64,000 nt of DNA, taken from contig NZ_JAZIFY010000002.1 of NCBI RefSeq assembly GCF_036634195.1, forward strand, positions 62,001-126,000. The letters run 5' to 3'. Under the pieces are notes generated by a model. The model saw only the letters and a list, made by a program, of their open reading frames with translations. It did not search any database and had not been told where the DNA came from. A program made the position numbers and the translations under genes. Below, in pieces: positions 40,617 to 55,866 of the stretch. The DNA is from Streptomyces sp. P9-A4 (GTDB lineage: Bacteria > Actinomycetota > Actinomycetes > Streptomycetales > Streptomycetaceae). Positions within the stretch are counted from its first letter, which is position 1. Every line of letters starts with the position of its first letter.

Positions 40617-41377
40617 GTGGTGGCCTGCCGCAGCCGGAGTCCCGCCATGCCGCCGTCGACGGCGAGGGCGGTGCCCGTCACCGAGCCGGCGGCCGGGGAG
40701 GCGAGGTAGACGACGGCTGCCGCGACCTCGTCCGCGCTGACGAGACGGCCGGTGGGCTGGCGGGCGCTGAGCGCCGCGCGCTCGGCCGCCGGGTCCTCGG
40801 CCGCGTCCAGGAGGCGGGCGACCCAGGGGGTGTCCACCGTGCCGGGGTTGACGCAGTTGACCCGGATGCCCTCCCGGACGTGGTCGGCGGCCATGGCGAG
40901 CGTCAGCGAGAGCACCGCGCCCTTGCTCGCCGAGTACAGGGCCCGCTGGGGGAGGCCCGCGGTGGCCGCGATGGAGCAGATGTTGACGACGGCGGCGTGC
41001 TCGGAGCGGCGTAGATGGGGCAGTGCGGCGCGGGTCGTCCGGACGACACCGAGGACGTTCACGTCGAGGACACCGTGCCACTGGTCGTCGGGGTTGTCCT
41101 CGACGGTCCCGGCCGCGCCGATGCCCGCGTTGTTGACGAGGATGTCGATGCCGCCGAGGGTGGCGGCGGCCGATTCGACCGCCGTACGCACGGAGGTGTC
41201 GTCGGCCACGTCGGCGCGGACGGCGGTGAGCGTGTCGGGGGCGGCGTCCGGGTTCAGATCGAGGACGGCGACGGCGACGCCCTGGGCGTCCAGCAGGCGG
41301 GCGACGGCGAGTCCGATGCCGGAGGCGCCGCCGGTGACGACGGCCCGCAGGCCGGCGAGCGGGGATGCGGTGGTCAT
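40613..41377 (-). CDS. SDR dehydrogenase, probable 2-keto-3-deoxy-L-fuconate dehydrogenase
   Basis: A 254-residue short-chain dehydrogenase: TGGASGIG cofactor loop, NNAG, catalytic Ser in ICSIAAT and YSASK. The Asp in VLDLN after beta-2 favours NAD. In the oxidative L-fucose pathway an SDR oxidises 2-keto-3-deoxy-L-fuconate to the 2,4-diketo acid; L-fucose dehydrogenase is the alternative. It sits between the dehydratase and the aldo/keto reductase with 4-bp overlaps on both sides. Confidence 0.85.
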
Positions 41378-42798
41378 GCCGTCACCTCCACGGCGTCCGC
41401 AGCCACGGCGCCCACGACGGCGGCTCCTTCGGCCGCCGAGTCGTCGGCTCTCGTGTCGTCGGCCGTGCCTTCGGCCTGGTGTGCGAGGTCGGCGGCCCAG
41501 AAGTCGCCGTCGGGGAAGGCGAACGTGGCGATCGACTCGGCCCGCATGTCCGCCGAGAACCCCGGGGCCAGGGGTGCCGTGTAGCTACCCTCGCGTACGA
41601 CGGCCGGGTGGGCGAAGTGCTCGTGGAGGTGGTCGACGAACTCGATGACCCGGTCCTCGGTGGTCCGGCTGAGCGCCACATAGTCGAACATCGCCAGGTG
41701 CTGGACGAGTTCGCAGAGTCCGACGCCTCCGGCGTGCGGGCAGACGGGCACGTCGAACTTCGCGGCGAGGAGCAGTATCGCGAGGTTCTCGTTCACCCCG
41801 CCGACCCGGGCCGCGTCCAGCTGGACGATGTCGACGGCGTCCGCCTGGAGGAGTTGTTTGAACACGATGCGGTTCTGTACGTGCTCCCCCGTGGCCACCT
41901 TGACGGGGGCGACCGCGGCCCGTACGCGCGCGTGCCCCAGGATGTCGTCGGGGCTGGTGGGCTCCTCGACCCAGTAGGGGTCGAACTCGGCGAGCGCCCG
42001 GGTCCAGTCGATCGCCTCGGCCACGTTCCACCGCTGGTTGGCGTCGACGGCGAGGCGTACGTCCGGGCCGACGGCCGCCCGCGCGGCACGGCAGCGGCGT
42101 ACGTCGTCGGCGAGGTCCGCCCCCACCTTCAGCTTGATCTGGGTGAAGCCGGCGGCGACGGCCTCCTTGGCCAGCCGGGTCAGCTTCTCGTCCGAGTAGC
42201 CGAGCCAACCCGGCGAGGTCGTGTACGCGGGGTACCCCTGGGCGCGCAGCGTCCGCTCGCGCTCGGCGCGGCCCTCCTTGCCGCGCCGCAGCAGGTCGAG
42301 CGCCTCCTCGGGGGTGAGCGCGTCGGTGATGTACCGGAAGTCCACCTGCGAGACGAGCCATTCGGGTTCGGCGTCGGCCAGGAGCTGCCACAGCGGCTTG
42401 CGCTGCCGCTTGGCGGCCAGGTCCCACACGGCGTTCACCACGGCGCCTACGGCCATGTGCATGACGCCCTTCTCGGGTCCGAGCCAGCGGAGCTGGCTGT
42501 CGCCGATCAGCGCGCGGCTGACAAGGCCCGGGTCGGCGCAAAGCTCCTCCACGGAGCGGCCGATGATGTGCGGGCGCAGTGCTTCGATCGCGGCGACCTG
42601 GACATCGTTGCCACGTCCGATGGTGAAGGTGAAGCCGTGCCCCTGGGGGCCGTCGGGCTCGTCCGTGCGCAGCACGAGGTAGGCCGCGGAGTAGTCGGGG
42701 TCCGGGTTCATCGCGTCGGACCCGTCGAGTTGGCGGGAGGTCGGGAAGCGGATGTCGTAGGTGTCCATCGCGATGACCCGCGTGATGTCAGTGGACAA
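41374..42798 (-). CDS. L-fuconate dehydratase
   Basis: A 474-residue enolase-superfamily enzyme. The N-terminal [34 protein letters not shown] and YSAAYLVL are the signature of the L-fuconate dehydratase/ENOSF1 group. Catalytic and metal residues are visible: KLKVG, DANQRW, EEPTSP, ATGEH and PHAGGVGL. It dehydrates L-fuconate to 2-keto-3-deoxy-L-fuconate. TTG start with AAAGGAA 5 bp upstream. The last 40 residues (Ala/Asp/Glu-rich) look like an extra tail. It is the first gene of the operon, with a candidate operator at 42947-42957. Confidence 0.93.
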
Positions 42799-42946
42799 CG
42801 GGGTTCCTTTCACACCTGGGCTGCGCGCCCGGCGTTCGGCTTCGTCTGCACGAGCTACGCGGGGCGGCCCCAACCATCAGCACAGATCGGGTGATTGGCC
42901 TGTCGAGCGAGAACGATACGGCGCCCGCGAGAGGTCAGGCAAGTAG

Positions 42947-42957
42947 ACATCGGATGT
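42947..42957. promoter_or_regulatory. Operator candidate, ACATCGGATGT (fuconate dehydratase operon)
   Basis: A perfect 11-base palindrome, 149 bp before the dehydratase start. On the minus strand a promoter-like TTGCCT and TATCGT pair (18-base spacer) lies just downstream of it. The same palindrome recurs at four other promoters in the window. Confidence 0.6.
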
Positions 42958-42999
42958 TTCTTTCGCTCTCCGGGTGTCGTCGACACCGGGAACGACAAA

Positions 43000-43029
43000 G
43001 GGCGTTCGCCCCCCGAGGAGCGAACGCCC
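43000..43029 (-). terminator. Terminator of the GntR regulator gene
   Basis: GGGCGTTCGC and GCGAACGCCC form a perfect 10-bp stem with a 10-base loop. On the minus strand the stem is followed by TTTGTCG. It starts 26 bp after the regulator stop codon and precedes the fuconate dehydratase promoter. Confidence 0.7.
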
Positions 43030-43054
43030 GGTCTCCGGCCGTGTGCGACCGGCC

Positions 43055-43726
43055 TCACAGCACGCTGTCGAGCCACCTCACCACATTGGAGATGTGGATC
43101 GTCGCCCACGCCTCCGCCGTGCGCGCGTCGCGCGCGGCGAGGGCGTCCAGGATCGCCCGGTGCTCCGAGATCGTCCTGGCCACGGCCGTCTCCTCGGTGA
43201 TGCCGCGCCACAGCCGGGCCCGTACGGTCGCCCCGGAGATGCTGTCGAGCAGCGAGCACAGCAACGGGATCCCGGAGGCCGCCGCGATGCGCCGGTGGAA
43301 CTCCAGGTCGCCGGCGACGAGTTCGTCCAGGCTCGGCGAGTCCCCGAGCCCGTCGAGCAGTTCACCCAGCTCCCGGATCTCGTCCTCGGGTATGCGGTCC
43401 GCCGCCAGGGCCGTCGCCGCCGGCTCCAGGATGCCCCGTACCTTCAGGGCCTGGAGCGCCTGGTCGTCCTGGTGGAAGTCCAGGACGAACGAGACCGCTT
43501 CGAGCAGCAGGGGCGGTTCCAGGCTGGAGACGTACGTGCCGTCCCCCTGCCGTACGTCCAGGATGTTCAGCAGGGAGAGCGCCTTCACCGCCTCCCGCAG
43601 GGAGTTGCGGGAGAGGCCCAGTCCGGCGGCGAGGTCGGCTTCCTTGGGAAGCCGGTCCCCCGGGCGCAGCGCACCGGAGACGATCATCTCCTTGATCTTC
43701 CCGATCGCCTCGTCGGTCACTGCCAA
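43055..43726 (-). CDS. GntR/FadR-family transcriptional regulator (FCD domain)
   Basis: A 223-residue regulator. The winged helix covers residues 5-70 (LRPGDRLPKEADLAAGLGLSRNSLREAVKALSLLNILDVRQGDGTYV). The FCD ligand-binding domain follows, with metal-type residues in ELLDGLGDSPSL, DLEFHRRIAAASGI and EHRAILDALAARD. The ATG at 43726 lies 25 bp from a copy of the palindrome ACATCGGATGT, implying autoregulation. Because the same palindrome precedes the fuconate, sugar-import, dehydrogenase and FAH transcription units, it is the best candidate regulator of the whole region. The ligand is probably a pathway acid such as 2-keto-3-deoxy-fuconate (inference). Confidence 0.9.
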   Translation of the reverse strand: MAVTDEAIGKIKEMIVSGALRPGDRLPKEADLAAGLGLSRNSLREAVKALSLLNILDVRQGDGTYVSSLEPPLLLEAVSFVLDFHQDDQALQALKVRGILEPAATALAADRIPEDEIRELGELLDGLGDSPSLDELVAGDLEFHRRIAAASGIPLLCSLLDSISGATVRARLWRGITEETAVARTISEHRAILDALAARDARTAEAWATIHISNVVRWLDSVL

Positions 43727-43751
43727 GGCATCCTCCTGTGCGCGGCAAAAT

Positions 43752-43762
43752 ACATCGGATGT
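43752..43762. promoter_or_regulatory. Operator candidate, ACATCGGATGT (GntR promoter)
   Basis: Perfect palindrome in the context AATACATCGGATGTGTC, between the sugar isomerase gene end and the GntR start. Its position suggests autoregulation. Confidence 0.65.
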
Positions 43763-43779
43763 GTCTGTCGGCCGCCACC

Positions 43780-44673
43780 CTACTCCAGGGCGGATCGGAG
43801 CCGACCGGAACCGGCGGCACCGGCCCCCCTGCGTACGGGGGCGGGTGCCGCCGTACGCCGTAGCGTCGCCGCCTCGCGTCCCAGGACGGCGGGATCGTCG
43901 TCCGGCACGAACTCCAGGAGCGCTTCCCTCGGCCGTGGCCGGCCGGCGAGCAGGCCGAAGGCCCGCGTCCAGAGCTCGTCACGGGCGTCCAGGGGCAGCC
44001 GGTGGTTGTCCGGCCACCAGGAGAAGACGTGGACGGCGCTGACGCGTTCGGCCAGCGCGGCGAGTCCCGCGAGCGCCTCGTCGTCGGGGGCGTTCAGGGG
44101 CGGCTGCCAGTAGGTGGTGATGTTGTCCACCGACGCGGCACGGGGGTCGCGCGGTTCCTCCAGTTCCTCCAGGAGCCGGAGCGTGGAGGACACCGAGTCG
44201 GTCAGTGTCCTGATGTGGAACTCCAGGGCGAGTTCCAGGCCCTGGTCCCGCGCGATCAGCGCCGCCGCCCGCAGGCCCTCGGTGATGCGGGCGCGCTCGC
44301 CCTCCGTCACCTCGGCCGATCCGGCCTCCCCCGCCCAGACCCGGACGCGCGGCGCTCCGAGCGTCACCGCCGCGCGGGCGACCTCCGCGAACCCGGGGAG
44401 TTCGTCCGGGAGTCCGTGGAAGTACGAGCCGTAGGAGCAGCACGTCATGCCGTGGCGTTCGGTGGCTTCGCGGACGGCGCCGAGGGCCTCGGGGTCTCCC
44501 GGTGGCGCGTGGACGTCCGCTCCCCACTCGATCACCGCGAGACCCGCGTCCGCGGCACGACGGACGACCTCCAGGGCGGGCAGCCGCCGGAAGGTGACGG
44601 AGCAGAGGCCGAGCGGGGGCGCGGGAACGGCGGCCGGCCCGCACGAGAGGTGGCGCGGTGGGTCCTCGGGCAC
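43780..44673 (-). CDS. Sugar phosphate isomerase/epimerase family TIM-barrel protein
   Basis: A 297-residue xylose-isomerase-like TIM barrel: GLCSVTFRRLPALEVVRRAADAGLAVIEWGADVHAP at the N-terminus, then YGSYFHG, LEFHIRTLTDS with a metal-ligand-type Glu and His, and VHVFSWWPDNH. The family includes epimerases and isomerases of sugars and sugar acids; the substrate is unknown. GTG 44673 has GGAAGG 7 bp upstream. It lies downstream of the PL6 lyase gene in the same direction. Confidence 0.75.
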   Translation of the reverse strand: MPEDPPRHLSCGPAAVPAPPLGLCSVTFRRLPALEVVRRAADAGLAVIEWGADVHAPPGDPEALGAVREATERHGMTCCSYGSYFHGLPDELPGFAEVARAAVTLGAPRVRVWAGEAGSAEVTEGERARITEGLRAAALIARDQGLELALEFHIRTLTDSVSSTLRLLEELEEPRDPRAASVDNITTYWQPPLNAPDDEALAGLAALAERVSAVHVFSWWPDNHRLPLDARDELWTRAFGLLAGRPRPREALLEFVPDDDPAVLGREAATLRRTAAPAPVRRGAGAAGSGRLRSALE

Positions 44674-44777
44674 GTGCGGGCCTTCCGGTCGAAGGGGCGG
44701 GCGGGTCGGGCGGGAAAGGCGGAGGGAAGAGGCGGCCGGTACGCGCGCGTACCGGCCGCCCTGCGGCACTGGTCCGG

Positions 44778-46235
44778 TCAGGGTGCGTGCGGGCCCACGT
44801 CCGCCGGTGTCAGCGGCCGGTTCTTCGCGGGCACGGTCGCGTACTCGTCGGCGCCGACGTCGCGACGGCCGCCGCGCGGGTCGCCGTCGATGTCGTGGGT
44901 GACGGGTGCCGGGTACAGGGTGGCCGCCCCGATCGCCCGGCTCGTACGGGAGAGGCGGTGGACGCCGTCGGGACCCGCGACGAGCCGGGGGTCGGCCCGC
45001 AGGAAGCCTCCGGCGGGGATGTTCCCGTCGCCCGCGGCCCCGAACAGGATGTTGCCCTGCCAGGTGAAGCGGACCGTGTTCGCCATCTCGACCAGGTTTC
45101 CGCTCCCGCCGACGAAAAGGTTGTCGGCGACCGTGACGTCACGGGGTTCGTGCGGGCGGTGGCTCTCGCCCGAGAGCCCGCCCGCGTTGTCCAGGAGCGT
45201 GTTGTGGGCGATGAGGATCCGGTCGGGCGCGTCGTTGCCCCGGCGGTCCGCGGCCGATTCGCCGGGGACGTGGTCGCGCTCCGAACCGCTGCCGATCACC
45301 ATGGCGCGCCCGGAGAGGCCGGCGAGGTAGTTGTTGACGATGACGTGGTCGTTTCCGTAGATCCGCAGTCCCTCCTCGCCACCGATCAGGTAGTTGCTGT
45401 CGACGAGGGTGCCGTTGCCGTGGCGCAGGACGATCCCGCCGAGGCTGTCGCGGATGGTGTTGTGCCGGATGACGTTGTCGGAGCTCTTCACGGAGATCGC
45501 CTCGGGATCGCCGTTCGCCCGCTCGAACAGGTTGTACTCGACGACCGCGTGCGCGCTGGAGAGGGCGCGGGGGCTGACGCCGAGGCGGATCGGTTCGCCG
45601 CCGTTGGAGCCGGCGAAGGTGTGGTCGGAGAAGTGGTTGCGGTGGATGTGGACGCGCTGGGCCATGCCCTCGCTGCCGTCGCCCTCGATGCCGAGGTAGA
45701 TGCCGAGCGTGCTCTTGCCGTGGAAGTGGTTGCGGTCCACGACGGTGTCGTCGGCGCGCACCATGACCCAGTGCAGGCCCTCGATGTCGGCGAGCTGGAG
45801 GTCGTTGCGGGTCAGCCTGATGTGCGAGCAGCTCGGCGGGAGGTCCAGGGTGGTGCTCTGGCGGAAGGAGAAGCCACTCAGGGTGATGTGGCTGGAGTCG
45901 TCGAGGACGAAGCTCCGCTCCCCGCGCAGCACGACGCCGCCCCGGGACGCGGCGACGATCGTGATCGGCGCGCCCCTGGAGCCGTGCCGGCCACGGACGG
46001 TCAGGGGCCGGTCCGCGGGGACGGTGTAGTCACCGTCCGCGACGACGATCCGGGTTGCCGGACCGGCGGCGTCGATCGCCTTCTGGAGTGCGTCGAGGGA
46101 GCGGACCTCGACGGCACGGCCCCGGTGGTGGGCGTGTGTGGCCGACGTGGCGCTCGCGTACGCGGGCCCGGCGAGGGGCAGGGCGGCCGCGGCCGCCCCC
46201 ACCGCGGTGCCGGTGAGGAACGTGCGTCGTTGCAT
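44778..46235 (-). CDS. Secreted polysaccharide lyase family 6 (chondroitinase B / alginate lyase type)
   Basis: A 485-residue right-handed beta-helix enzyme. The Tat-like signal peptide is MQRRTFLTGTAVGAAAAALPL with cleavage near AYASA. The catalytic region KSSDNVIRHNTIRDS and IVLRHGNGTLVDSNYL matches PL6, with the Lys as base and the Arg of LRHGN. Substrates in the family are dermatan sulfate and alginate, cleaved by beta-elimination at uronates. The neighbouring GH29 fucosidase and the uronate/glucarate genes suggest a fucosylated uronic acid glycan. It would act outside the cell. Confidence 0.88.
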   Translation of the reverse strand: MQRRTFLTGTAVGAAAAALPLAGPAYASATSATHAHHRGRAVEVRSLDALQKAIDAAGPATRIVVADGDYTVPADRPLTVRGRHGSRGAPITIVAASRGGVVLRGERSFVLDDSSHITLSGFSFRQSTTLDLPPSCSHIRLTRNDLQLADIEGLHWVMVRADDTVVDRNHFHGKSTLGIYLGIEGDGSEGMAQRVHIHRNHFSDHTFAGSNGGEPIRLGVSPRALSSAHAVVEYNLFERANGDPEAISVKSSDNVIRHNTIRDSLGGIVLRHGNGTLVDSNYLIGGEEGLRIYGNDHVIVNNYLAGLSGRAMVIGSGSERDHVPGESAADRRGNDAPDRILIAHNTLLDNAGGLSGESHRPHEPRDVTVADNLFVGGSGNLVEMANTVRFTWQGNILFGAAGDGNIPAGGFLRADPRLVAGPDGVHRLSRTSRAIGAATLYPAPVTHDIDGDPRGGRRDVGADEYATVPAKNRPLTPADVGPHAP

Positions 46236-46319
46236 GGTGCCTCCGTGATCGGTCGGAAGGGGTTCCCGGGCGGGATCGGTGCCGGGACGGGGTGGAGCTG
46301 GACGGGCGGGCCGTTCTCC

Positions 46320-46385
46320 GACGGATCCGTCACGTAGTGCCCTGCGACGGGTCCGTCACGACGTGCCTTACGACGGGTCCGTCAG
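46320..46385. repeat. 26-bp tandem repeat at the fucosidase 3' end
   Basis: Units start at 46320, 46346 and 46372 (partial), each beginning GACGGRTCCGTCA, itself a near palindrome. The third copy lies inside the coding end of the fucosidase gene and encodes its last residues. Confidence 0.6.
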
Positions 46386-47750
46386 GAAGAGTTCGATGAC
46401 GGGTACCGGGGTGTCGGGCCGCCGTACGGGGAGCTGGAGGGTGAGGGTGCCGGCCGGCTGCCCGCCCATCTGGGTGTTCATCGCGGGGCGGTCCGGGGCC
46501 GGCGGGAGCCGCACGATCTCGGAGGCGTCGTTCAGGAGCTGGGCGTGGCGCACCCGGCCTTCGAGTCCGGGCAGGTGCAGATGGCGCAGCGGCCAGGCGA
46601 AGAGGTGGACGTAGAGGCGGTCGCCGCGCTGCGTGTACCGGCAGTCGGCGGGCGGAGTGAACGCGGAGGGGCCGCAGCCGCGGACGGACCGTTCGTGCAG
46701 GTCCGTCCAGCGCCCGATCTCCTCAAGGGCGGCGGTATCGCGGGGGTCGAGGTCGCCGCGGCCGGTGGGGCCGACGTTCAGGAGGAGGTTGCCGCCCTTG
46801 GAGACGCCGTCGACGAGCATCCGGACGAGGAGGTCGGGGCTCTTGTGGTCGAGGTTGTCGCGGTCGTAGCCCCAGCTGCCGTTGAGCGTCTGGCAGGCCT
46901 CCCAGAGCACCGGCCGGCCGTCGGCGGTCATCGGCTCGGACGGCTGGTACTGCTCGGGGGTGACGAAGTCCCCGGGGAGGCCGGCGCGGTCGTTGACGAG
47001 GATGTGCGGCTGGAGTTCGCGGACCATGGCCAGGAGGCGGGTGGCGTCCCAGTCGTCGGGGCCCTTGCCGCCCCACCATTCGGGGCGGCCCGCGTAGGAG
47101 AAGTCGAAGAAGAGGTAGTCGATCCGCCCGTACTCCGTGAGGAGCTCGCGGACCTGGCCGTGCAGATAGCGCTGGTACTCGCGGATGTCGCGGTCCGCCG
47201 CCGCGGCCTTGAACTCCTCGTCGTCGCGCTGCGGGTGCGTGCCGTCGACGGGGAAGGAGGGGTGGTGCCAGTCGATCAGGGAGTGGTAGAAGCCGACCTT
47301 GAGTCCTTCGGCCCTGCACGCCTCGACGAACGGCCCGACCAGGTCGCGGCCGTGCGGGGTCTTCGTCACCTTGTACTCGGTGAGGGCGCTGTCCCAGAGG
47401 CAGAAGCCGTCGTGGTGCTTGGTGGTCAGCACGACGTACCGCATGCCGGCGGCCTTGGCCGCCCTGGCCCAGCGGACCGGGTCGTAGCGGTCGGGCTCGA
47501 AGTGGTCGAAGTACACCTGGTACTGCTCGTCCGTCAGCCTCTCCCGGTTCTTCACCCACTCGTGGCGGGCGGCGAGGGAGTACAGGCCCCAGTGGACGAA
47601 CATGCCGAAGCGGTCGTGGGTGAACCAGGTCGTGTCCGGCGCGGCGCCCGCTTCGGAGGCGGAGGTGGCCGCGGGCGCGCCGGGGACTGCGGCTGCGCCA
47701 TCGGCGGTCGAGGGAGCGGTCGACGCGTCGTCGGCGCTGGTGGTGGTCAT
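46368..47750 (-). CDS. Alpha-L-fucosidase (GH29)
   Basis: A 460-residue glycoside hydrolase family 29 enzyme. The catalytic barrel begins with WFTHDRFGMFVHWGLYSLAARHEWVKNRE; other conserved parts are YVVLTTKHHDGFCLWDS, GFYHSLIDWHHP and YLFFDFSYAG, which probably holds the nucleophile Asp. It removes terminal L-fucose. There is no signal peptide: the N-terminal 37 residues are Ala/Thr/Ser/Pro-rich but not hydrophobic. So it probably acts in the cytoplasm on imported oligosaccharides. ATG with CAGGAGCG upstream; 79 bp after the glucarate dehydratase gene. Confidence 0.94.
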   Translation of the reverse strand: MTTTSADDASTAPSTADGAAAVPGAPAATSASEAGAAPDTTWFTHDRFGMFVHWGLYSLAARHEWVKNRERLTDEQYQVYFDHFEPDRYDPVRWARAAKAAGMRYVVLTTKHHDGFCLWDSALTEYKVTKTPHGRDLVGPFVEACRAEGLKVGFYHSLIDWHHPSFPVDGTHPQRDDEEFKAAAADRDIREYQRYLHGQVRELLTEYGRIDYLFFDFSYAGRPEWWGGKGPDDWDATRLLAMVRELQPHILVNDRAGLPGDFVTPEQYQPSEPMTADGRPVLWEACQTLNGSWGYDRDNLDHKSPDLLVRMLVDGVSKGGNLLLNVGPTGRGDLDPRDTAALEEIGRWTDLHERSVRGCGPSAFTPPADCRYTQRGDRLYVHLFAWPLRHLHLPGLEGRVRHAQLLNDASEIVRLPPAPDRPAMNTQMGGQPAGTLTLQLPVRRPDTPVPVIELFLTDPS

Positions 47751-47829
47751 CGGGCATCGCTCCTGTGCGGTCGGAGGCGGTCGGGGCGCAGACGTCAGCG
47801 GGTTCCCGGAGACGGGCGGGGCGGCGGGC

Positions 47830-49098
47830 TCAGCGGGGTTCGTGGACGTCCTCGCGCAGCCGTACGGAGGGCGCCACGCGCGCGAGGTACCCGGTGTCGT
47901 CGCGGCGGGTCAGTCCGCAGGCCAGGTACTGATCGTGCAGCCGGGCGAGCGCTTCGCGGTCGAGTTCCACGCCGAGGCCGGGGGTGCGCGGGACGGTGAT
48001 CGCGCCGTCGACGAACTGCCAGGGCACGGTGACGACGTCGTCCTCGGGCCGCTTCCACGGCCAGTGGGTGTCGAGGTCGTGGCCGATGGCGGGGGTCGCG
48101 GCGGCCAGGTGGACCATCGCGGCCAGGCTGATGCCCAGGTGGGAGTTGGAGTGCATGGACATCTCGATGCCGAAGTTCCGGCAGCAGGTGGCCAGGTGCT
48201 GCGAGGCCTTGAGTCCGCCCCAGAAGTGGTGGTCGCCGAGCAGTACACCGACCGCGCCGACCGGGACGGCCCGGGTCAGCTGCTCCCAGGTGACCACGCA
48301 CATGTTGGTGGCGAGCGGCATCGGGGCGACGCGGGCGAGGTCGGCCATCGCGGGGATGCCCGCGACCGGGTCCTCCAGGTACTCCAGTACGCCCGACAGC
48401 TCCTCGGCGACCCCGACGGCGGTCTCCGGGTCCCAGCTCGCGTTGGGGTCGAGCCGCAGCGGGTGGTCCGGGAACGCCTCGCGGAGCGCCCGGATCGCGG
48501 CGACCTCCTCGTCCGGGGGGAGCACACCGCCCTTGAGCTTGAAGGAGCGGAAGCCGAACCGGTCCGCCATGAGACGGGCCTGTGCGACCAGCCCCTGGGC
48601 GTCCAGGGCCGGCCCCCAGGCGTCGGGTGACTGCCCGGGGTGTGCGGCCCACTTCGCGAACAGGTAGCCGCAGAAGTCGATCCGGTCGCGGGTCGCCCCG
48701 CCGAGCAGGTCGGAGACGGGCCTGCCCAGGTGCTTGCCCTGGAGGTCGTGGCAGGCGACCTCGAACGGTGAGGTGACGCTCGCGACGGTCTTCTCGGCGC
48801 CGCCTTCGCCGATGAGGCCGTGGGCATCGCGTGCGACCCGGCCGCCGACGACCGCGCCGACCCGCCGGGACAGTTCGTTGAGGTCGAAGGGGTCGAGGCC
48901 GGTCAGTTCGTCGGCGGCGGCGCGCAGCAGTTCGAGGTGGGCGGCGTCGCCGTAGCTCTCACCGAGCCCGTACGCGCCGGTGTCGGTCCGCACCTCGATC
49001 ACGGCGCGGAGTGCGTACGGCTCGTGGACTCCGACGGCGTTGAGGAGCGGCGGGTCGGCGAAGGCGACGGGGGTGATGACGACGGTGGTGATCTTCAC
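47830..49098 (-). CDS. gudD: Glucarate dehydratase (enolase superfamily)
   Basis: A 422-residue mandelate-racemase-type enzyme. It has GLGESYGD, KLKGGVLPPDEE with the catalytic Lys, RLDPNASWDPET (metal Asp and Asn), EDPVAGI, DHHFWGG and HSNSHLGISL with the catalytic His. Glucarate dehydratase converts D-glucarate (or idarate) to 5-keto-4-deoxyglucarate. GTG 49098 overlaps the next upstream gene by 4 bp, and that gene encodes the enzyme for the following step. Confidence 0.9.
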   Translation of the reverse strand: MKITTVVITPVAFADPPLLNAVGVHEPYALRAVIEVRTDTGAYGLGESYGDAAHLELLRAAADELTGLDPFDLNELSRRVGAVVGGRVARDAHGLIGEGGAEKTVASVTSPFEVACHDLQGKHLGRPVSDLLGGATRDRIDFCGYLFAKWAAHPGQSPDAWGPALDAQGLVAQARLMADRFGFRSFKLKGGVLPPDEEVAAIRALREAFPDHPLRLDPNASWDPETAVGVAEELSGVLEYLEDPVAGIPAMADLARVAPMPLATNMCVVTWEQLTRAVPVGAVGVLLGDHHFWGGLKASQHLATCCRNFGIEMSMHSNSHLGISLAAMVHLAAATPAIGHDLDTHWPWKRPEDDVVTVPWQFVDGAITVPRTPGLGVELDREALARLHDQYLACGLTRRDDTGYLARVAPSVRLREDVHEPR

Positions 49099-50066
49099 GA
49101 GGCCACCGCCACGGACTCGTCCAGGGCAGCGGCGGAGGCGGCGGGGCCCTGTGCCTCGGCCAGTGCGCGGCGTCCCTCGTGGAGCAGCTCCCGCAGTCGT
49201 TCGACGTCGTCCGGGGCAGCGTCCACCAGGGGCGCCCTGACGTGTCCGACGTCGAGCGAGCGGAGTCGGGCTCCGGCCTTGACGAGGGCGACGGCGTAGC
49301 CGGGGACCTTGTCGCGGAGTTCGGTCAGCGGCAGGTAGAAGCGGGCGAGGAGGCGTTCGGTCGTGGCGGTGTCGCCGGCCGTCAGGGCCGTGTGGAAGGC
49401 GCGGGCGATGTCGGGGGCGAAGCACAGGACGGCGGAGGAGTAGTCGCGGACGCCGATGGCCCGGCAGGCCGCGGCGCTCACCTCGGCGGTGGGGAGGCCG
49501 TTGAGGAAGGCGAAGGACTCGGCGCGCGGGTGGCCGCTGGTGCGTACCGCAGTGACCATGCGGGCCAGCATGTCGAGGTCGCCGTTGCCGTCCTTGATCC
49601 CGGCGATCCCGGGGACGGAGAGGAGGCGGAGGGCGGTGGACACGCCGATCCCGGCCAGTCCCCGGCGGTAGACGACGACGGGCAGCCGGCCGGCGCGGGC
49701 CACGGACTCCGCGTAGGCGAGGTAGCCGTCCTCGGTGCCGCCGACGAGGTACGGCGGGAGCAGCAGGATCCCCTCGGCGCCGGCGTCCGCGGCGGCGGTG
49801 GCCGCCGCCCTGGCGTTGCCGAGGCCGCCCCCGGCGCCGGCGTACACGGGTACGCGCCCGGCGACGACCTCGACGGCGCGTCGTACGACCTGGGTGTACT
49901 CGGGTCCGCTGAGCGAGGAGTACTCCCCCGTGCCGCAGGCGACGAAGAGCGCCGCCGGTCCGTGGGCGAGCTGGTCCTCTAGGTGGTCGGCGAGCACGGT
50001 CGTGTCGACCTCGTCGGCCGGGGTGAACGGCGTGAGCGGGAAGGACATCAGGCCGGACGGGATCAC
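49095..50066 (-). CDS. kdgD: 5-dehydro-4-deoxyglucarate dehydratase (DapA superfamily)
   Basis: A 323-residue member of the dihydrodipicolinate synthase superfamily. GLMSFPLTPF, the ACGTGEYSSLSGPEY segment, the Tyr in VVVYRRG and the Schiff-base Lys in GIAGIKDGNGD are as in 5-dehydro-4-deoxyglucarate dehydratases. It converts the GudD product to 2-oxoglutarate semialdehyde plus CO2. GTG 50066 with AAAGGA upstream. It is coupled to gudD. The next enzyme, a semialdehyde dehydrogenase, is not in the window. Confidence 0.88.
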   Translation of the reverse strand: MIPSGLMSFPLTPFTPADEVDTTVLADHLEDQLAHGPAALFVACGTGEYSSLSGPEYTQVVRRAVEVVAGRVPVYAGAGGGLGNARAAATAAADAGAEGILLLPPYLVGGTEDGYLAYAESVARAGRLPVVVYRRGLAGIGVSTALRLLSVPGIAGIKDGNGDLDMLARMVTAVRTSGHPRAESFAFLNGLPTAEVSAAACRAIGVRDYSSAVLCFAPDIARAFHTALTAGDTATTERLLARFYLPLTELRDKVPGYAVALVKAGARLRSLDVGHVRAPLVDAAPDDVERLRELLHEGRRALAEAQGPAASAAALDESVAVAS

Positions 50067-50116
50067 GGGAGGTGGTCCTTTCGTGAGTTCGGCGGTACGG
50101 GGGGGGGAAAGCCGGG

Positions 50117-50983
50117 TCAGCCCTTGAGGGCGCCGCTGGACAGGCCGTGGACGAAGGATCGCTGGAAGAAGAGGAAGACGATCACGGACGGCAGCAGGGC
50201 GAGGAGGGACGCGGCCATGACGACGCCGGGGGTGACGAGGGGGTCGACCCTGAGGGTGCGCAGGGCCAGCGGCAGCGTGTAGGAGGACGAGTCGGTGGCC
50301 ACGAGGAGGGGCAGCAGGTACTGGTCCCAGATCATGGTGAAGCCGAAGACGCCGATGACGCCGAGCGCGGGCTTGCACATCGGGAGGATGATCTGCGCGA
50401 AGATCCGCAGGTCTCCGGCGCCGTCGATGCGCGCCGCCTCCTCCAGTTCCTTGGGCACCTCCTTCATGAACTCGGTCATGACGAGGATGGAGAACGCCCA
50501 GGCGCCGACGGGGACGATCATGCCGGCCAGGGTGCCGATCAGGTTGAAGTGGACGACCGGCAGGTCGGCGAGGATGACGGACAGCGGGATGGCCAGGATC
50601 TCTTCCGGCAGCATCAGCGTCGCCAGGATCGCGACGAACACCAGGCTCATCCCCCGGAACCGCTTCCGGGCGAGCGCGTAGCCCGCGAGGACGGAGACGG
50701 CCACCTGGAGCAGCAGCCCGAACCCGACGACGAAGAACGAGTTGAGCAGGTACTTCAGGACTCCCTGGTCGAACGCGACCGTGAAGTTGTCCACGGTGGG
50801 GTCGGAGGGGATGACGCTGAGCTGGGTCGGGTCCTTGACGTGGTTGAACGCGCTGACCAGGAGGGCCAGGAGCGGGCCCGCGAACAGCAGCAGGACCATG
50901 AGGTAGGTGACGGCCTTGAGGACGCGGCCACCGGCGCTCCGGCTCTCGGTGAGACCCAGCGCGGTCTCGGTCGGCGCGCTCAT
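50117..50983 (-). CDS. Carbohydrate ABC transporter permease (MalG type)
   Basis: A 288-residue CUT1-family permease with six hydrophobic segments. The EAA loop reads ELEEAARIDGAGDLRIFAQIILPMCKPALG. It overlaps the partner permease gene by 4 bp (ATGA). Both pair with the lipoprotein upstream. No ATPase gene is nearby; CUT1 importers of Streptomyces often share the MsiK ATPase encoded elsewhere. Confidence 0.92.
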   Translation of the reverse strand: MSAPTETALGLTESRSAGGRVLKAVTYLMVLLLFAGPLLALLVSAFNHVKDPTQLSVIPSDPTVDNFTVAFDQGVLKYLLNSFFVVGFGLLLQVAVSVLAGYALARKRFRGMSLVFVAILATLMLPEEILAIPLSVILADLPVVHFNLIGTLAGMIVPVGAWAFSILVMTEFMKEVPKELEEAARIDGAGDLRIFAQIILPMCKPALGVIGVFGFTMIWDQYLLPLLVATDSSSYTLPLALRTLRVDPLVTPGVVMAASLLALLPSVIVFLFFQRSFVHGLSSGALKG

Positions 50984-51981
50984 TCGTTACCCCTCCGTCG
51001 GAACAGGTGGACGCCGACCGTCAGGAGCAGCGTCGCCAGGAACAGCAGTACCGCTCCGGCGGCGCCGACGCCGAGCCGGTTCTGTTCGAGGCCCAGCTTG
51101 TAGATGACGGTCATGACGACCTCGGTCGAGCCGTCGGGGCCGCCGTTGGTGAGCAGGAAGACCTCGGTGAAGACCCGCAGGCCGCGGATGGCCGCCAGGA
51201 TGAAGAGGATCGTGAGGACGGCCCGCAGTCCGGGGACGGTCACGTGGCGGATGCGCTGGAACCTGGACGCGCCGTCGACCTTGGCCGCCTCGTACAGGCC
51301 GCGGTCGACGCCGGCGAGACCCGCGAGGAAGATCATCATGTCGTAGGGCGCGCCGCGCCAGATGCCGGTGATCATGATGGAGACCATCGAGCTGTCGGGG
51401 TCGTTGATGAATCCCGACGGGCCGAACCCCACGAGGCCGAGGATGGAGTTGAGCATGCCGTCCTGGGTGGGGTGGTACATGATCCGCCAGAGTTCGGCGA
51501 CGACCGCGATCGGCACGACGACCGGCAGGAACGCCGCCGAGCGTACGAAGCCGAGCTTGCGGCCCTGTCCCTCCATGAGCAGGGCGAGGGTGAGGCCGAG
51601 CAGCATCGACCCGAGGGTCTGGCCGACCGCGAGGACGACGGTGTGCCAGGCTGCCTCACGGAAGCCGTCGGAGGTCAGGACGGTGGCGTAGTTCTCGCCG
51701 CCGACCCACCGGTTGCCCAGATAGGGCCGGACGTCCTGGAAGGACATGGCCAGCGCGCTGGCCATGGGGATGAACTTGAAGTACAGGAAGAGGATCAGGG
51801 CCGGGGCCAGGAACAGCCACGGCGTCCACCACCGGCCGCCGCGGCGGCTGCGCACCCGTCGGGAGACGGGCCGTCCGCCGGGGGGCGCGGTCGTGGACCC
51901 CGCCTCCGGCAGGCCGTCCGCCCGGGCGGTGGAGCCGGCCGCCGCGGGGGCGGCCGACTTCACCTGGTCGACGCTCGTCAT
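50980..51981 (-). CDS. Carbohydrate ABC transporter permease (MalF type)
   Basis: A 333-residue CUT1-family permease. A Ser/Ala/Pro-rich cytoplasmic N-terminus of about 50 residues precedes six hydrophobic segments, and the EAA loop is LYEAAKVDGASRFQRIRHVTVPGLR. ATG 51981 overlaps the binding-protein stop by 4 bp. Substrate unknown; the context suggests an oligosaccharide with fucose or uronate. Confidence 0.92.
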   Translation of the reverse strand: MTSVDQVKSAAPAAAGSTARADGLPEAGSTTAPPGGRPVSRRVRSRRGGRWWTPWLFLAPALILFLYFKFIPMASALAMSFQDVRPYLGNRWVGGENYATVLTSDGFREAAWHTVVLAVGQTLGSMLLGLTLALLMEGQGRKLGFVRSAAFLPVVVPIAVVAELWRIMYHPTQDGMLNSILGLVGFGPSGFINDPDSSMVSIMITGIWRGAPYDMMIFLAGLAGVDRGLYEAAKVDGASRFQRIRHVTVPGLRAVLTILFILAAIRGLRVFTEVFLLTNGGPDGSTEVVMTVIYKLGLEQNRLGVGAAGAVLLFLATLLLTVGVHLFRRRGNE

Positions 51982-53303
51982 CCGGCGATTCCCTGCTCCT
52001 GGAGGATGTCGGCGAGCTTCTTGTCGAGTTCGCGCAGCTTGGCGCCGGCGTCGAGGGAGCAGTCGGCCATCAGGGCGTTGACGGTCTCGGCGGTGACCTG
52101 TCGTACGGGGGTCCAGTTGGGGATGGACGGGGCGTAGCGCCCGGAGGCGCGGTAGACCTCGGCGTACGTCTTCCAGCGCGGGTCGGGACGGACCTCGGTG
52201 ACGTCCACCGTCTTGTTCACGGGGAGCTGGACGGTGGAGCCGTCCTCGCCCTGCATGCCGAGCTTCTGGCCATCGGCGGAGATGGCGTAGCCGGCGAAGG
52301 CGTCCTGTCCTGCCATGTTCTCGGAGCCGGCCATCAGGTAGACGGAGCCGCCCTCCGCGAGCACGGTGGCGTCCTTGGGGCCCTTGGGCATGGGGACGAC
52401 CTCGTACTTGTCCTTGCCGAGCGACTTGTCGAAGCGGGGCATCAGATAGGGGCCGACGACGAACATGCCGGTCCTGCCCGCCTCGAACGTCTCGTTCGTC
52501 GGCGGGGTGTCCATGGTGACGGCGCCGGGCTGGATGGCCTTGCTGTCGCAGCCGAGGGCCCGGAACCAGCGCACCGCCTCCATGGACTCCTTGCTGGTCA
52601 TGGACGGCTTGTACTTCCCCTGGCCGGCCTCGGTGATGAAGTCGCCGCCGGCGGCCCAGAGGAAGTTGGAGAAGTACCAGGAGGCGTAGCCGCGCTTGGT
52701 GGAGAGCGGGGCGGCGAGTCCGTACGTGTCCTGCTTGCCGTTGCCGTCGGGGTCCCGGGTGGTGAAGGCCTCGGCCATCGCGGCGAGGTCGTCCCAGCTC
52801 TGCGGGGCTCCGAGCTTCAGCTTCTCGCGCCAGTCCTTGCGGATGAGGAGGGCGCCGGCCTGGGCGGAGTACGGGATGCCGAACTGCTTCCCGTCGACGC
52901 TCTTGCCGGAGTTGAGGCCCTGCTCGACGAGGTCCCCGCTGCTCTTGATCTTGCTGAGGTCGATCTCCCTGAGCAGCCCCTGACTGTGCATGGAGCCGAG
53001 CTGGGTGACGTCGTTCATGACGATGTCGGGCAGGTTCCGCTGGGCGGCCCGCTGCTGGAGCTTCGTCTCGAAGTCGTCGAAGATCGCCGTGACCTTCACC
53101 TTGTGGCCGGTGGCCTTCTCGAATCCGGCGACCAGCCGCAGCGTGGCCTTCTCGCCGGCGCCGCCGGGGGTGGTCCTGGTCCACAGCTCCAGTTCCGCCT
53201 TGGCGTCCTGCTTGGCGTCCGTACCGGCAGGGCCGGACGTACAGCTCGTGAGGGCCAACGCCGAGGCGAGAATACCCGCGCCGATCCATCGCGTTCTCTG
53301 CAT
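51978..53303 (-). CDS. Extracellular sugar-binding lipoprotein (ABC transporter)
   Basis: A 441-residue family-1 solute-binding protein. The signal peptide MQRTRWIGAGILASALALTSC ends in a lipobox (LTSC). ELELWTRTTPGG and GFEKATGHKVKV are typical for CUT1 sugar binders. It is first in the transport operon (binding protein, MalF, MalG, kdgD, gudD, then fucosidase). A LacI-like operator (53338-53351) and two copies of the TCCGATG half-palindrome lie upstream. Confidence 0.92.
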   Translation of the reverse strand: MQRTRWIGAGILASALALTSCTSGPAGTDAKQDAKAELELWTRTTPGGAGEKATLRLVAGFEKATGHKVKVTAIFDDFETKLQQRAAQRNLPDIVMNDVTQLGSMHSQGLLREIDLSKIKSSGDLVEQGLNSGKSVDGKQFGIPYSAQAGALLIRKDWREKLKLGAPQSWDDLAAMAEAFTTRDPDGNGKQDTYGLAAPLSTKRGYASWYFSNFLWAAGGDFITEAGQGKYKPSMTSKESMEAVRWFRALGCDSKAIQPGAVTMDTPPTNETFEAGRTGMFVVGPYLMPRFDKSLGKDKYEVVPMPKGPKDATVLAEGGSVYLMAGSENMAGQDAFAGYAISADGQKLGMQGEDGSTVQLPVNKTVDVTEVRPDPRWKTYAEVYRASGRYAPSIPNWTPVRQVTAETVNALMADCSLDAGAKLRELDKKLADILQEQGIAG

Positions 53304-53337
53304 CACCACTCCTGTTCGCCGCCCTCGGCAGCTGGCC

Positions 53338-53351
53338 TGTAAGCGCTTGCC
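53338..53351. promoter_or_regulatory. LacI-family-like operator, TGTAAGCGCTTGCC
   Basis: A palindrome centred on AAGCGCTT, 35 bp upstream of the binding-protein start. LacI-type regulators of sugar operons in actinomycetes bind such sites. No LacI gene is in the window. Confidence 0.4.
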
Positions 53352-53563
53352 GGGGACGCTAACGCGCGGCCGATCGGGGGTCAATAGTCCGATGACTGAA
53401 AAGAGTTGGGGGTGGGATATTCATGTTGCGCCGGAAGCGCACCGAAGGCCCTTCGGAGTGCCCATCACCCGCTTGAGCAGTCAGGGAGCGGGGGTTGAGG
53501 GCGAGGTGCCGTACGACGGTGACGGGACGACGGTCGGGCGACCGCCGGCCAAGCTTCCGTCAA

Positions 53564-53576
53564 AGATCCGATGTAT
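53564..53576. promoter_or_regulatory. Operator candidate, AGATCCGATGTAT (upstream of the sugar importer)
   Basis: Nine or more positions match ATACATCCGATGTAT. It lies 261 bp upstream of the binding-protein gene and downstream of the dehydrogenase gene. A weaker core, TCCGATGA, is at 53388-53395. The remainder of 53304-53714 holds no gene. Confidence 0.45.
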
Positions 53577-53714
53577 GTCCGGGGCAGAGGCTCCCGGGCC
53601 TCGATATTCAAGCCAGCACAGGCGCGAGGGCCCGGCTGACGGGTCTCCGCGCCCGGGGCGCGGCTCTCACTGCGGGGCCCTGTTCGCGGCTCTCCGGGCC
53701 CGGCGCGCGGCTTC

Positions 53715-54725
53715 CTACGCCCTGGTCGCGGCCCTGGTCGGTTCCACGGCGTGGCGCAGGGGCTCGCCGTTCACCAGTCGGCGCAGTTCGTCACGGACGA
53801 GTTCGCCGAGACGGGCCCGCTCCCCGCCCATGGCGCCTGCGAGATGGGGGGTGAGGACGACGTTCGGCAGGGTGAACAGTGCCGAACCGGGGTCGGGCGG
53901 CTCGGGCCAGGTGACGTCGAGCACGGCGGTGAGGTCGGAGCGGTCCCAGAGGACCCCGATCACCTCCGGCTCGTTCAGGACGGCGCCGCGGGCCGTGTTG
54001 ATCAGGGTGGCACCCTCGGGGAGGAGGGACACCAGCCGTCTGCCGACGAGGCCTTCGGTCTCGGGGAGCAGCGGGGCGTGCACGCTCACGACGTCACACG
54101 TCGAGAACAGTTCCTCGACGCCGGTGAGCCGGACGCCCAGCCCGCCGGCGAGGGCCGGGTCGATCACGGGGTCGCAGGCCAGCACCTCGACGTCGAAGTG
54201 CCGCAGGTGCTCCGCGACGAGCCGGCCGATCTCGCCCAGACCGAGCAGGCCGACCCGGGAGCCGTATCCGCCGGCCACCCGGGGGTCGTGCGGGAACTTC
54301 CCGCGGGCGGCCACCTCGCGGGCCTGCCGGTGGACCTGTTTGAGGCCGAGCAGGATCTGGGCGAGGCTGAATTCGGCGACCGGGACGGCGTTGGCCGCCG
54401 CCGCGGTGACGATCGGGACGCCCCTGGCCCAGAACTCCGGTGTGGTCAGATGGCGCACCGAACCGGCGGCCACCATGACCGCCCTCAAGCGTGGCGCGTG
54501 GGCGAGGAGTTCCGCGTCGAGGACCGGCGCTCCCCAGCCGGTGAGCAGCACGTCGACCTCCTCCAGGACGCTCGGATCGCGCCGGAGGGCTTCGCGGGTG
54601 AGGGCGGGGGTCCGGAGGTTCACCAGGCGCCCGATGTCCTGGAGGACCGGCGCCGGGTAGACATCGGCCCTGCGCCCTTCTTCCATGACCAGTTGGGCGT
54701 TGAGCATCCTCGTCGTGTCTGCCAT
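53715..54725 (-). CDS. D-2-hydroxyacid dehydrogenase family protein
   Basis: A 336-residue NAD-dependent 2-hydroxyacid dehydrogenase. The Rossmann motif is GLLGLGEIGRLVAEHL near residue 157; the catalytic Arg is in NTARGAVLNE and the His in LTPHLAGAMGGE. Family members reduce 2-keto acids or oxidise D-2-hydroxyacids. ATG 54725 has GGAGG 8 bp upstream. It is divergent from the FAH hydrolase gene, with two palindromes between them, so it belongs to the same regulon; its substrate in the pathway is unknown. Confidence 0.85.
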   Translation of the reverse strand: MADTTRMLNAQLVMEEGRRADVYPAPVLQDIGRLVNLRTPALTREALRRDPSVLEEVDVLLTGWGAPVLDAELLAHAPRLRAVMVAAGSVRHLTTPEFWARGVPIVTAAAANAVPVAEFSLAQILLGLKQVHRQAREVAARGKFPHDPRVAGGYGSRVGLLGLGEIGRLVAEHLRHFDVEVLACDPVIDPALAGGLGVRLTGVEELFSTCDVVSVHAPLLPETEGLVGRRLVSLLPEGATLINTARGAVLNEPEVIGVLWDRSDLTAVLDVTWPEPPDPGSALFTLPNVVLTPHLAGAMGGERARLGELVRDELRRLVNGEPLRHAVEPTRAATRA

Positions 54726-54854
54726 CGGCTCGGCCTCCTGGGGCGTGGCGGTCTGGGCGCCGGCCGGCCGCTCCCCCGGGGTCGGGGCGCCGTGAGGCGC
54801 GTCGGCGCGGTACGGGAGCGGGTGCCGGGAGCGGCCGTCGGCGCGCCACACGAT

Positions 54855-54865
54855 ACATCGGATGA
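54855..54865. promoter_or_regulatory. Operator candidate, ACATCGGATGA (dehydrogenase promoter)
   Basis: Context GATACATCGGATGACAC, 130 bp upstream of the hydroxyacid dehydrogenase gene. It has one mismatch to the perfect palindrome. Confidence 0.55.
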
Positions 54866-54950
54866 CACCTCGGGGCGATGGGTGGATCGCTCCCCCGCCA
54901 GTAACTACCTCTGGACAAAACGCCAGTTGATTGGTTGCATTCCCGGGTCG

Positions 54951-54966
54951 ATACATCCGATGTATA
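54951..54966. promoter_or_regulatory. Operator candidate, ATACATCCGATGTATA (FAH hydrolase promoter)
   Basis: The longest copy, palindromic over 15 bases, 18 bp upstream of the FAH gene. TACATC can serve as a -10 box with TTGATT 19 bases upstream, so a bound repressor would block RNA polymerase. Confidence 0.65.
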
Positions 54967-54984: not shown

Positions 54985-55866
54985 ATGCGCGTGCTGAGAG
55001 TCGGAGAGGCGGGGGCCGAGCGCCCCGCGGTCCTCGGTGGGTCGGGTGAACTCCTCGACGCGTCCGGCGTCCTCGACGACATCGACCACCGCTCCCTCGC
55101 CGACGGCGCCCTCGACCGCCTCGCGGGCGCGGTGGCCGCCGGGGAGCTGCCCGTACTGGACTCCGGAATGCCGCCCGCTCCCGGCGCCGCGACCGGCGTA
55201 CGGATCGGGGCGCCGGTGGCACGCCCCGGAAAGGTGGTGTGCATAGGCCTCAACTACCGTGACCACGCCGAGGAGACGGGCGCCGCGATCCCGGCCGAGC
55301 CGGTCGTGTTCATGAAGGACCCCTGGACGGTCTCGGGGCCGTACGACGACGTGCTGGTCCCCCGCGACAGCGTCAAGACCGACTACGAGGTCGAGCTCGC
55401 CGTGGTGATCGGCAGGACCGCGCGCTACCTGGAGAGCGACGAGGACGCCCTCGCGTGCGTCGCCGGGTACGCCGTCTCCCATGACGTCTCCGAGCGCGCC
55501 TTCCAGCTGGAGCGCGGCGGCCAGTGGGACAAGGGCAAGAGCTGCGAGACCTTCAACCCGCTCGGTCCGTGGCTCGTCACCCCCGACGAGATCCCCGACC
55601 CGGGCAAGCTCGCCCTCCGGCTGTCGGTGAACGGCGTCGAGCGCCAGAACGGCACGACGGCGGACATGGTGTTCCCGGTCGCCGAGATCATCCGCTACCT
55701 GAGCCGGTTCATGGTGCTGTACCCCGGCGACGTCATCAACACCGGGACCCCGGCCGGTGTCGCCCTCGGCCGTCCGGAGCCGCGCCCGTACCTCCGCCAC
55801 GGGGATGTCGTCGAGTGCGGGATCGACGGGCTCGGCATCATGCGCCACACCTTCCGACAGGCCTGA
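54985..55866 (+). CDS. FAH-family hydrolase, probable 2,4-diketo-3-deoxy-L-fuconate hydrolase
   Basis: A 293-residue fumarylacetoacetate hydrolase family protein: GLNYRDHAEETG, the metal site in DYEVELAVVIG, FMKDPWTVSGP, NTGTPAGVALG. FAH-family enzymes cleave C-C bonds of diketo acids; in the oxidative L-fucose and L-rhamnose pathways one cleaves the 2,4-diketo-3-deoxy acid to pyruvate and L-lactate. That would complete the pathway and feed LutABC. ATG 54985 has GAAGGG 8 bp upstream; GTG 54976 is an alternative. The operator-like palindrome directly upstream links it to the GntR regulator. Confidence 0.87.
   Translation: MRVLRVGEAGAERPAVLGGSGELLDASGVLDDIDHRSLADGALDRLAGAVAAGELPVLDSGMPPAPGAATGVRIGAPVARPGKVVCIGLNYRDHAEETGAAIPAEPVVFMKDPWTVSGPYDDVLVPRDSVKTDYEVELAVVIGRTARYLESDEDALACVAGYAVSHDVSERAFQLERGGQWDKGKSCETFNPLGPWLVTPDEIPDPGKLALRLSVNGVERQNGTTADMVFPVAEIIRYLSRFMVLYPGDVINTGTPAGVALGRPEPRPYLRHGDVVECGIDGLGIMRHTFRQA

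Follow-up and report, generated by a model that had tools for sequence, protein, structure and literature searches.

The DNA considered here, a 64,000-nucleotide (nt) stretch of a contig of Streptomyces sp. P9-A4 (hereafter, the window), carries a cluster of genes for the use of L-fucose and fucosides and, in its midst, a gene for a GntR-family transcription factor (gntR; 43055–43726, minus strand). We are highly confident that this protein is the cluster's dedicated regulator: an autoregulating, FCD-domain dimer that would recognise the palindrome AKACATCSGATGTMT in five promoters and most likely repress them. This names a candidate regulator, operator and regulon for L-fucose use in Streptomyces, and may offer genetic work in that genus a switch that responds to fucose or fuconate. 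None of the titles and openings of abstracts among the matches listed from the open-access literature describes the operator or a fucose GntR regulator of Streptomyces, a search that did not extend to the motif tables in the supplements of PMC4494728 and PMC5507952, to RegPrecise or to subscription papers.

The palindrome and its probable regulator

Five near-identical palindromes of the form ACATCSGATGT occur in the window where the original prediction placed them, each of them intergenic and each in front of a different transcription unit, with gene starts as assigned in our analysis. Three are exact (42947–42957, 43752–43762 and 54953–54963) and two have one mismatch (53564–53574, AGATCCGATGT; 54855–54865, ACATCGGATGA). 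At the full length of 15 bp derived below, they become operator 1 (AGACATCGGATGTTT, 42945–42959), before the operon of the L-fuconate dehydratase gene, fucD; operator 2 (ATACATCGGATGTGT, 43750–43764), before gntR itself; operator 3 (AAAGATCCGATGTAT, 53562–53576), a degenerate copy that matches at 13/15 positions, before a sugar-importer operon; operator 4 (ATACATCGGATGACA, 54853–54867; 13/15), before a hydroxyacid dehydrogenase gene; and operator 5 (ATACATCCGATGTAT, 54951–54965), a perfect 15/15 copy, before the gene of an FAH-family hydrolase. Every site is upstream of its gene, and the distance from the site centre to the gene start is 154 nt at fucD, 31 nt at gntR, 266 nt at the binding-protein gene that leads the importer operon, 134 nt at the hydroxyacid dehydrogenase gene and 27 nt at FAH. 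A terminator-like hairpin (43000–43029, minus strand) stands between gntR and the fucD operon; since it closes gntR before that operon begins, the promoter that operator 1 serves is probably a separate one.

The motif exceeds chance across the genome, the first of two checks proposed with the original prediction that bear it out. The exact 11-mer has three copies in the 7.54 Mb of the host's two contigs, and all three are in this 12-kb stretch. Allowing one mismatch brings the number of places to 20, five of which are these sites; the 15-mer AKACATCSGATGTMT at up to two mismatches occurs at seven places, five of them again these sites (with 0, 1, 1, 2 and 2 mismatches) and the remaining two on contig 1. 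Relaxed to two mismatches, the 11-mer does not stand out in the window, with 13 places against an expectation of 6.95 and 5/100 shuffles reaching 13, and because it comes so near to chance there, it was dropped as a marker.

Orthologous promoters preserve the motif, too, which is the second of these checks. Our sample of gntR orthologues comprised the best 80 of 533 relatives, taken as named loci, with GntR proteins 68–96% identical; 74 of the 80 are titled Streptomyces. In the 200 nt that precede gntR (about 140 nt in the case of locus L104) the core is exact in 57/80, has one mismatch in 16/80, and is present in neither form in 7/80, six of which have ATACGTCGGAGGTCT in common. Twenty-nine other arrangements of the arm letters gave no exact match in these upstreams, and CACAT reached 10/80 at one mismatch. 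Alignment of 73 sites widens the operator to the 15-bp form A[GT]ACATC[CG]GATGT[AC]T (AKACATCSGATGTMT), in which position -7 is A in 71/73 and position +7 is T in all 73. Sites matching at 13/15 or better are found upstream of gntR in 78/80 loci and, within 350 nt, upstream of fucD in 29 of the 34 loci that hold this gene. At 12/15 the latter figure rises to 33/34, with none in L051; 100 random permutations of the palindrome gave at most 1/34.

Conservation at closer range was gauged in eight near-syntenic clusters: the window, five named loci and two other relatives. We compared hand-anchored sites, with n = 8 for the gntR, importer and hydroxyacid dehydrogenase rows, n = 7 for fucD (L049, which is without fucD and has a 12/15 site there, being omitted) and n = 6 for FAH (L046 and L049 being omitted where their sequences end). 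Invariant columns number 15/15 in operators 1 and 2, 11/15 in operator 3, 13/15 in operator 4 and 14/15 in operator 5. Of the 30 columns flanking each site on the left and on the right, respectively, 24 and 2 are invariant at fucD, 7 and 1 at gntR, 1 and 3 at the importer operon, 6 and 1 at the hydroxyacid dehydrogenase gene, and 18 and 4 at FAH. The one conserved flank at fucD, and likewise at FAH, coincides with the expected position of the core promoter.

The 15-mer also keeps company with the regulator. We compared 36 genomes of the genus that have an orthologue with 25 that do not, counting G016 (60% identity, a partial match) among the former and G046 (a 52% relative) among the latter. 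At least one 15-mer with no more than one mismatch occurs in 35/36 of those with an orthologue (mean 2.5) versus 5/25 of those without (mean 0.2), for a Fisher P of 1.6e-10 that ignores relatedness. Two or more such sites occur in 25/36 versus 0/25, which is beyond what autoregulation alone explains. In G008 and G068 the site precedes fucD or its operon, and the orthologue, the sole gntR match in each genome, is found on a different contig; the same trans arrangement recurs in G069 and G071, which possess further gntR relatives. Taken together, an autoregulating regulon of the FCD-type GntR protein is strongly supported by sequence comparison, and the palindrome is very probably the operator of the cluster's own regulator.

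Not every gntR orthologue resides in a fucose cluster, an idea that we considered and rejected: fucD is present in only 34/80 named loci. In many Streptomyces loci (among L052–L125), as seen in one representative scanned for each cluster of loci, the orthologue has glycerol-operon-like genes on one side and a PAC2 gene on the other; FGGY-kinase, MIP-channel and DAO-type genes occur in 57–61 of the 80 loci, and the PAC2 gene in 60. At loci without fucD the regulator may work in trans, or its targets may be other genes.

The GntR protein itself, of 223 amino acids, has an N-terminal GntR winged helix-turn-helix (HTH; PF00392, 61.5 bits, cut-off 27) and a C-terminal FCD domain (PF07729, 88.9 bits, cut-off 24.3). 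D140, H144, H189 and H211, present in 36/36 aligned proteins, form a putative metal site of one Asp and three His, the motif of FCD structures. We attempted to file the protein under related NCBIfam regulator models, and rejected this: the 25 of 26 matches listed, NanR and LldR being the best, are all far below cut-off. By architecture it belongs to the FadR subfamily (DgoR, LldR, PdhR), with which, as described by Suvorova et al. (2015; PMC4494728), it shares a GntR HTH combined with FCD, a palindrome with one central base and a tie to the catabolism of oxidised substrates. The operator is not the usual one of this subfamily, however. In place of TKGT-N2/3-ACMA it reads ACAT-CSG-ATGT, with A-C-A-T where T-K-G-T is customary, and the GT-N3-AC boxes are absent; these boxes are typical rather than defining, and the same source lists exceptions. 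The Arg that usually occupies HTH position 28, and contacts G (PMC4494728), a feature likewise typical and not defining, is Ala in the window protein and Ala or Ser in 22/22 orthologues.

A paralogue with a different candidate operator

In seven sister clusters, fucD lies within about 4 kb of a GntR paralogue, which we term type B, that is 42–48% identical. We asked whether this fucD-linked paralogue, too, uses the ACATC operator, and rejected the idea, for it carries a TGGTC-type site instead. Perfect TGGTC-N-GACCA stands upstream of the type-B gntR in 7/7 clusters, and upstream of fucD in only 1/7 (L219, where the intergenic region is shared), which leaves type B at most a possible regulator of fucD. 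The site conforms to TKGT-N3-ACMA, the canonical operator of the FadR subfamily (PMC4494728). The two regulators are alike in genus, in linkage to fucD and in the TCSGA at the centre of their sites, but differ in that type B has a canonical, TAGTGGTCSGACCACTA-like operator and other base-contact residues.

Those residues are at HTH positions 28, 39 and 58 in the numbering of PMC4494728 (residues 30, 41 and 60 of the window protein). Among hand-picked proteins—22 orthologues, 5 intermediates and 8 paralogues—they are A/S-N-Q in 22/22 orthologues and R-S-H in 8/8 paralogues. Upstream of their own genes, 17/22 orthologues have an ACATC site (at least 12/15) and 8/8 paralogues a TGGTC site (at least 13/15). 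The intermediates, 47–52% identical, have D, E or Q at position 28, N or S at 39, and Q or R at 58. Upstream of gntR, an ACATC-like site at 13/15 occurs in two of them and is missing from three, although L207 and L212, both among these three, have 13–14/15 sites upstream of an FAH-fucD pair. The 17-mer of the paralogue, at two mismatches, matches 31/100 genomes, with 0–2 matches each, several of which are gntR promoters; this search was uninformative, for the backward control gives more matches in nearly all of the genomes (0–21 each).

On balance, we think it fairly likely that two fucD-linked, FCD-type GntR paralogues have split, in Streptomyces, into orthogonal operators, TGGTCSGACCA and ACATCSGATGT, that track HTH positions 28, 39 and 58. 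The second would then be a new class of FadR-subfamily operator without GT/AC boxes, and, where both occur in one genome, the two regulators could coexist without crosstalk. The difference between R-S-H and A/S-N-Q is a candidate natural swap of specificity, and the pair of paralogues offers natural material for studying how FadR-type regulators change their DNA specificity. A simple swap does not account for everything: the recognition-helix Arg at position 38 is retained although the G it would meet is lost.

How the regulator would act, and other readings

In the mechanism we favor, a GntR dimer bound to AKACATCSGATGTMT at the five promoters would repress the cluster and its own gene. A sugar-acid intermediate, L-fuconate or 2-keto-3-deoxy-L-fuconate, would enter the putatively metal-bearing pocket of the FCD domain and release GntR from the DNA, whereupon the dehydrogenase, lactonase, dehydratase, hydrolase, lactate-oxidation and fucosidase genes would come on together. 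FCD-type regulators generally respond to carboxylic acids; because of this, and because the metal-site residues occur in 36/36 proteins, an acid is the most likely effector, and we lean slightly toward these two. Repression is favored by operators 2 and 5, which are so near to their gene starts (31 and 27 nt). In operators 2, 4 and 5 the GATGTAT merges, by eye, with TATNNN-like -10 hexamers; a promoter scan of 42780–43800, which takes in operators 1 and 2, found no promoter-like sites.

HypR of Streptomyces coelicolor is a precedent of sorts (PMC6608401): another FadR-subfamily GntR protein of Streptomyces, a repressor and autorepressor with a metal-binding FCD domain. It differs in serving the hydroxyproline pathway and in its motif, CTNTGC(A/C)ATGTCAC. 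FucR, a regulator predicted in saline-lake mat bacteria (Halomonas and others), in phyla other than this one, has its sites at genes for oxidative L-fucose use (PMC5507952). In a table of Streptomyces genes, a GntR gene is listed four places away from a gene for L-fuconate dehydratase; the passage in question makes no mention of regulation (PMC12402327).

Several observations weigh against this reading. The exact 11-mer separates genomes poorly, being present in 30/36 with an orthologue and in 12/25 without, which is why the 15-mer was used in its place; and since some of the promoters from which the 15-mer was derived belong to the same orthologue group, the co-occurrence is circular as far as autoregulation goes. 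Of the 22 orthologues, five (L019, L023, L033, L044 and L215, from other genera of the order) lack a site upstream of their own genes despite having the same contact residues, and 46/80 named loci are without fucD in the DNA compared. According to PMC4494728, an Asn at position 39 goes with a preference for A/T at positions 9 and 11 of the site; here these positions are C/G despite the Asn, so the new operator does not follow in any simple way from the residue changes. Finally, the site before the importer operon is a degenerate one at a long distance from the gene start, and a promoter-like TTGCCT-N18-TATCGT, read by eye before fucD, would put operator 1 just upstream of the -35 hexamer, a position that activators also use.

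The importer operon is where our reading is weakest. The original prediction had GntR controlling the whole region from 35 to 56 kb; the specificity and conservation of the sites support this in general, and least so for the importer/glucarate operon, because operator 3 is a degenerate copy at 266 nt from the start, with a LacI-type box (TGTAAGCGCTTGCC, 53338–53351) much nearer. The AAGCGCTT core of this box occupies the same position in 8/8 close clusters; TGTAAGCGCTTACA at up to two mismatches occurs at three places in the genome, including the box, against two for a control. The box suggests a second regulator for the operon. It is possible, if somewhat doubtful, that GntR regulates gntR, fucD, the hydroxyacid dehydrogenase gene and FAH alone, and that the importer/fucosidase operon answers to a LacI-type regulator. 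Against such a division, operator 3 is itself conserved, at 11/15 columns versus 1 and 3 of 30 in its flanks, and in the fucose clusters of other strains near-identical sites adjoin the first gene of GH20-GH29, GH29 or GH20 units. Four type-B fucose clusters, in L202 (at 14359), L204 (10309), L205 (15279) and L210 (15713), have near-identical, ATTCATCGGATGTCT-like operators: in L202, L204 and L210 the site is beside the mechanically assigned start of a GH20 gene, followed by a GH29 gene in L202 (by Pfam) and a weak GH29 match in L204 (by tblastn), and in L205 it is beside the start of a GH29 gene.

Alternatively, the same protein might act at the same sites mainly as an activator or in a dual role, repressing gntR and FAH and activating fucD. 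Operator 1 does adjoin the by-eye promoter, in a stretch with 24/30 invariant columns, and for HypR the authors suggest activation of one gene together with repression of others (PMC6608401). We consider this unlikely: in 13/34 other loci the fucD site is centered just 27–44 nt from the start, and the positions of operators 2 and 5 favor repression.

Less probable by far is that some other transcription factor binds the palindrome. The missing TKGT-N3-ACMA boxes of the subfamily (PMC4494728) might be taken to imply as much, as might the single 15-mer, at up to one mismatch, in 5/25 genomes that lack an orthologue; yet the missing boxes accompany changes at three base-contact positions, the site tracks the orthologue (35/36 versus 5/25; two or more sites in 25/36 versus 0/25), and it precedes gntR itself in 78/80 loci. 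That the sites reflect chance or shared ancestry without function is hardly credible: the compared sequences are related, and the 11-mer at two mismatches is near chance in the window, but the permuted controls, the genome-wide counts and the low conservation of the flanks at most sites argue strongly the other way.

Genes of the cluster

The cluster governed, in our reading, by GntR contains a clear L-fuconate dehydratase gene, the hallmark by which we assign it to the non-phosphorylated L-fucose route: fucD (41374–42798, minus strand) matches 1yey at E 1.1e-203 (phmmer) and is the single match in the genome at E ≤ 1e-100. Its close relative is the L-fuconate dehydratase of 1yey, 2hxt and 2hne, from Xanthomonas campestris (PMC5507952).

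Downstream on the same strand, and overlapping the end of fucD, is a gene for a short-chain dehydrogenase (40613–41377; Pfam adh_short_C2), possibly a 2-keto-3-deoxyfuconate 4-dehydrogenase to judge from its position; its best solved relative, 4dqx, is merely a 'probable oxidoreductase'. Then come an aldo/keto reductase gene (39561–40541; PF00248, with NCBIfam matches all below cut-off), possibly the L-fucose dehydrogenase and present in 7/8 close clusters (missing from L049); genes for a LutA-like, cysteine-rich (CCG) protein (38830–39579; PF02754 on an overlapping open reading frame, NCBIfam below cut-off), a LutB-like L-lactate oxidation iron-sulfur protein (37290–38771; TIGR00273, 457 bits, cut-off 444.8) and a LutC-like, LUD-domain protein (36505–37300, its start approximate; PF02589); a RhaM-family sugar mutarotase gene (36197–36508; PF05336); and an amidohydrolase gene (35343–36209; PF04909) whose product is probably the L-fuconolactonase, the sole NCBIfam match being L-fucono-1,5-lactonase at 215 bits, below the cut-off of 400. 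All of these are on the minus strand.

At the other end of the cluster are the D-2-hydroxyacid dehydrogenase family gene (53715–54725, minus strand; PF02826) and the FAH-family gene (54985–55866, plus strand), probably for 2,4-diketo-3-deoxyfuconate hydrolase. The latter's nearest solved relative is 8gsr (E 2.5e-72), an L-2,4-diketo-3-deoxyrhamnonate hydrolase; its match to NF053535, at 318 bits, is below the cut-off of 500. The non-phosphorylated route converts L-fuconate to 2-keto-3-deoxyfuconate, then to a diketo acid, and thence to pyruvate and lactate. Families that could supply the dehydrogenase, lactonase, 2-keto-3-deoxyfuconate dehydrogenase and diketo-acid hydrolase steps are present, with the lactonase and hydrolase matches to NCBIfam below cut-off; the gene set would take fucosides to pyruvate and lactate if the short-chain dehydrogenase, reductase and lactonase have the roles proposed.

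The importer operon, also on the minus strand, begins with a sugar-binding protein gene (51978–53303; SBP_bac_1, SBP_bac_8), present in 8/8 close clusters and 88–93% identical in the seven others. It continues with two ABC permease genes (50117–51948; PF00528 and NCBIfam), followed by genes for a KdgD-like protein of the DHDPS family and a glucarate-dehydratase-like member of the enolase superfamily (47830–50060; Pfam); the former matches NF002958 at 358 bits (cut-off 278), and the latter is below every NCBIfam cut-off listed. A GH29 alpha-L-fucosidase gene (46368–47750), the genome's sole PF01120 match, follows. The operon also adds, on the same strand, a gene for a xylose-isomerase-like TIM barrel protein (43780–44769; PF01261), found in just the window and L050 of the eight close clusters, and one for a PL6-like polysaccharide lyase, a relative of alginate lyases and chondroitinase B, with a twin-arginine (TAT) signal (44778–46235). 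The proximity of this lyase to the fucosidase and the fuconate pathway hints that a polysaccharide bearing both fucose and uronate is the real substrate.

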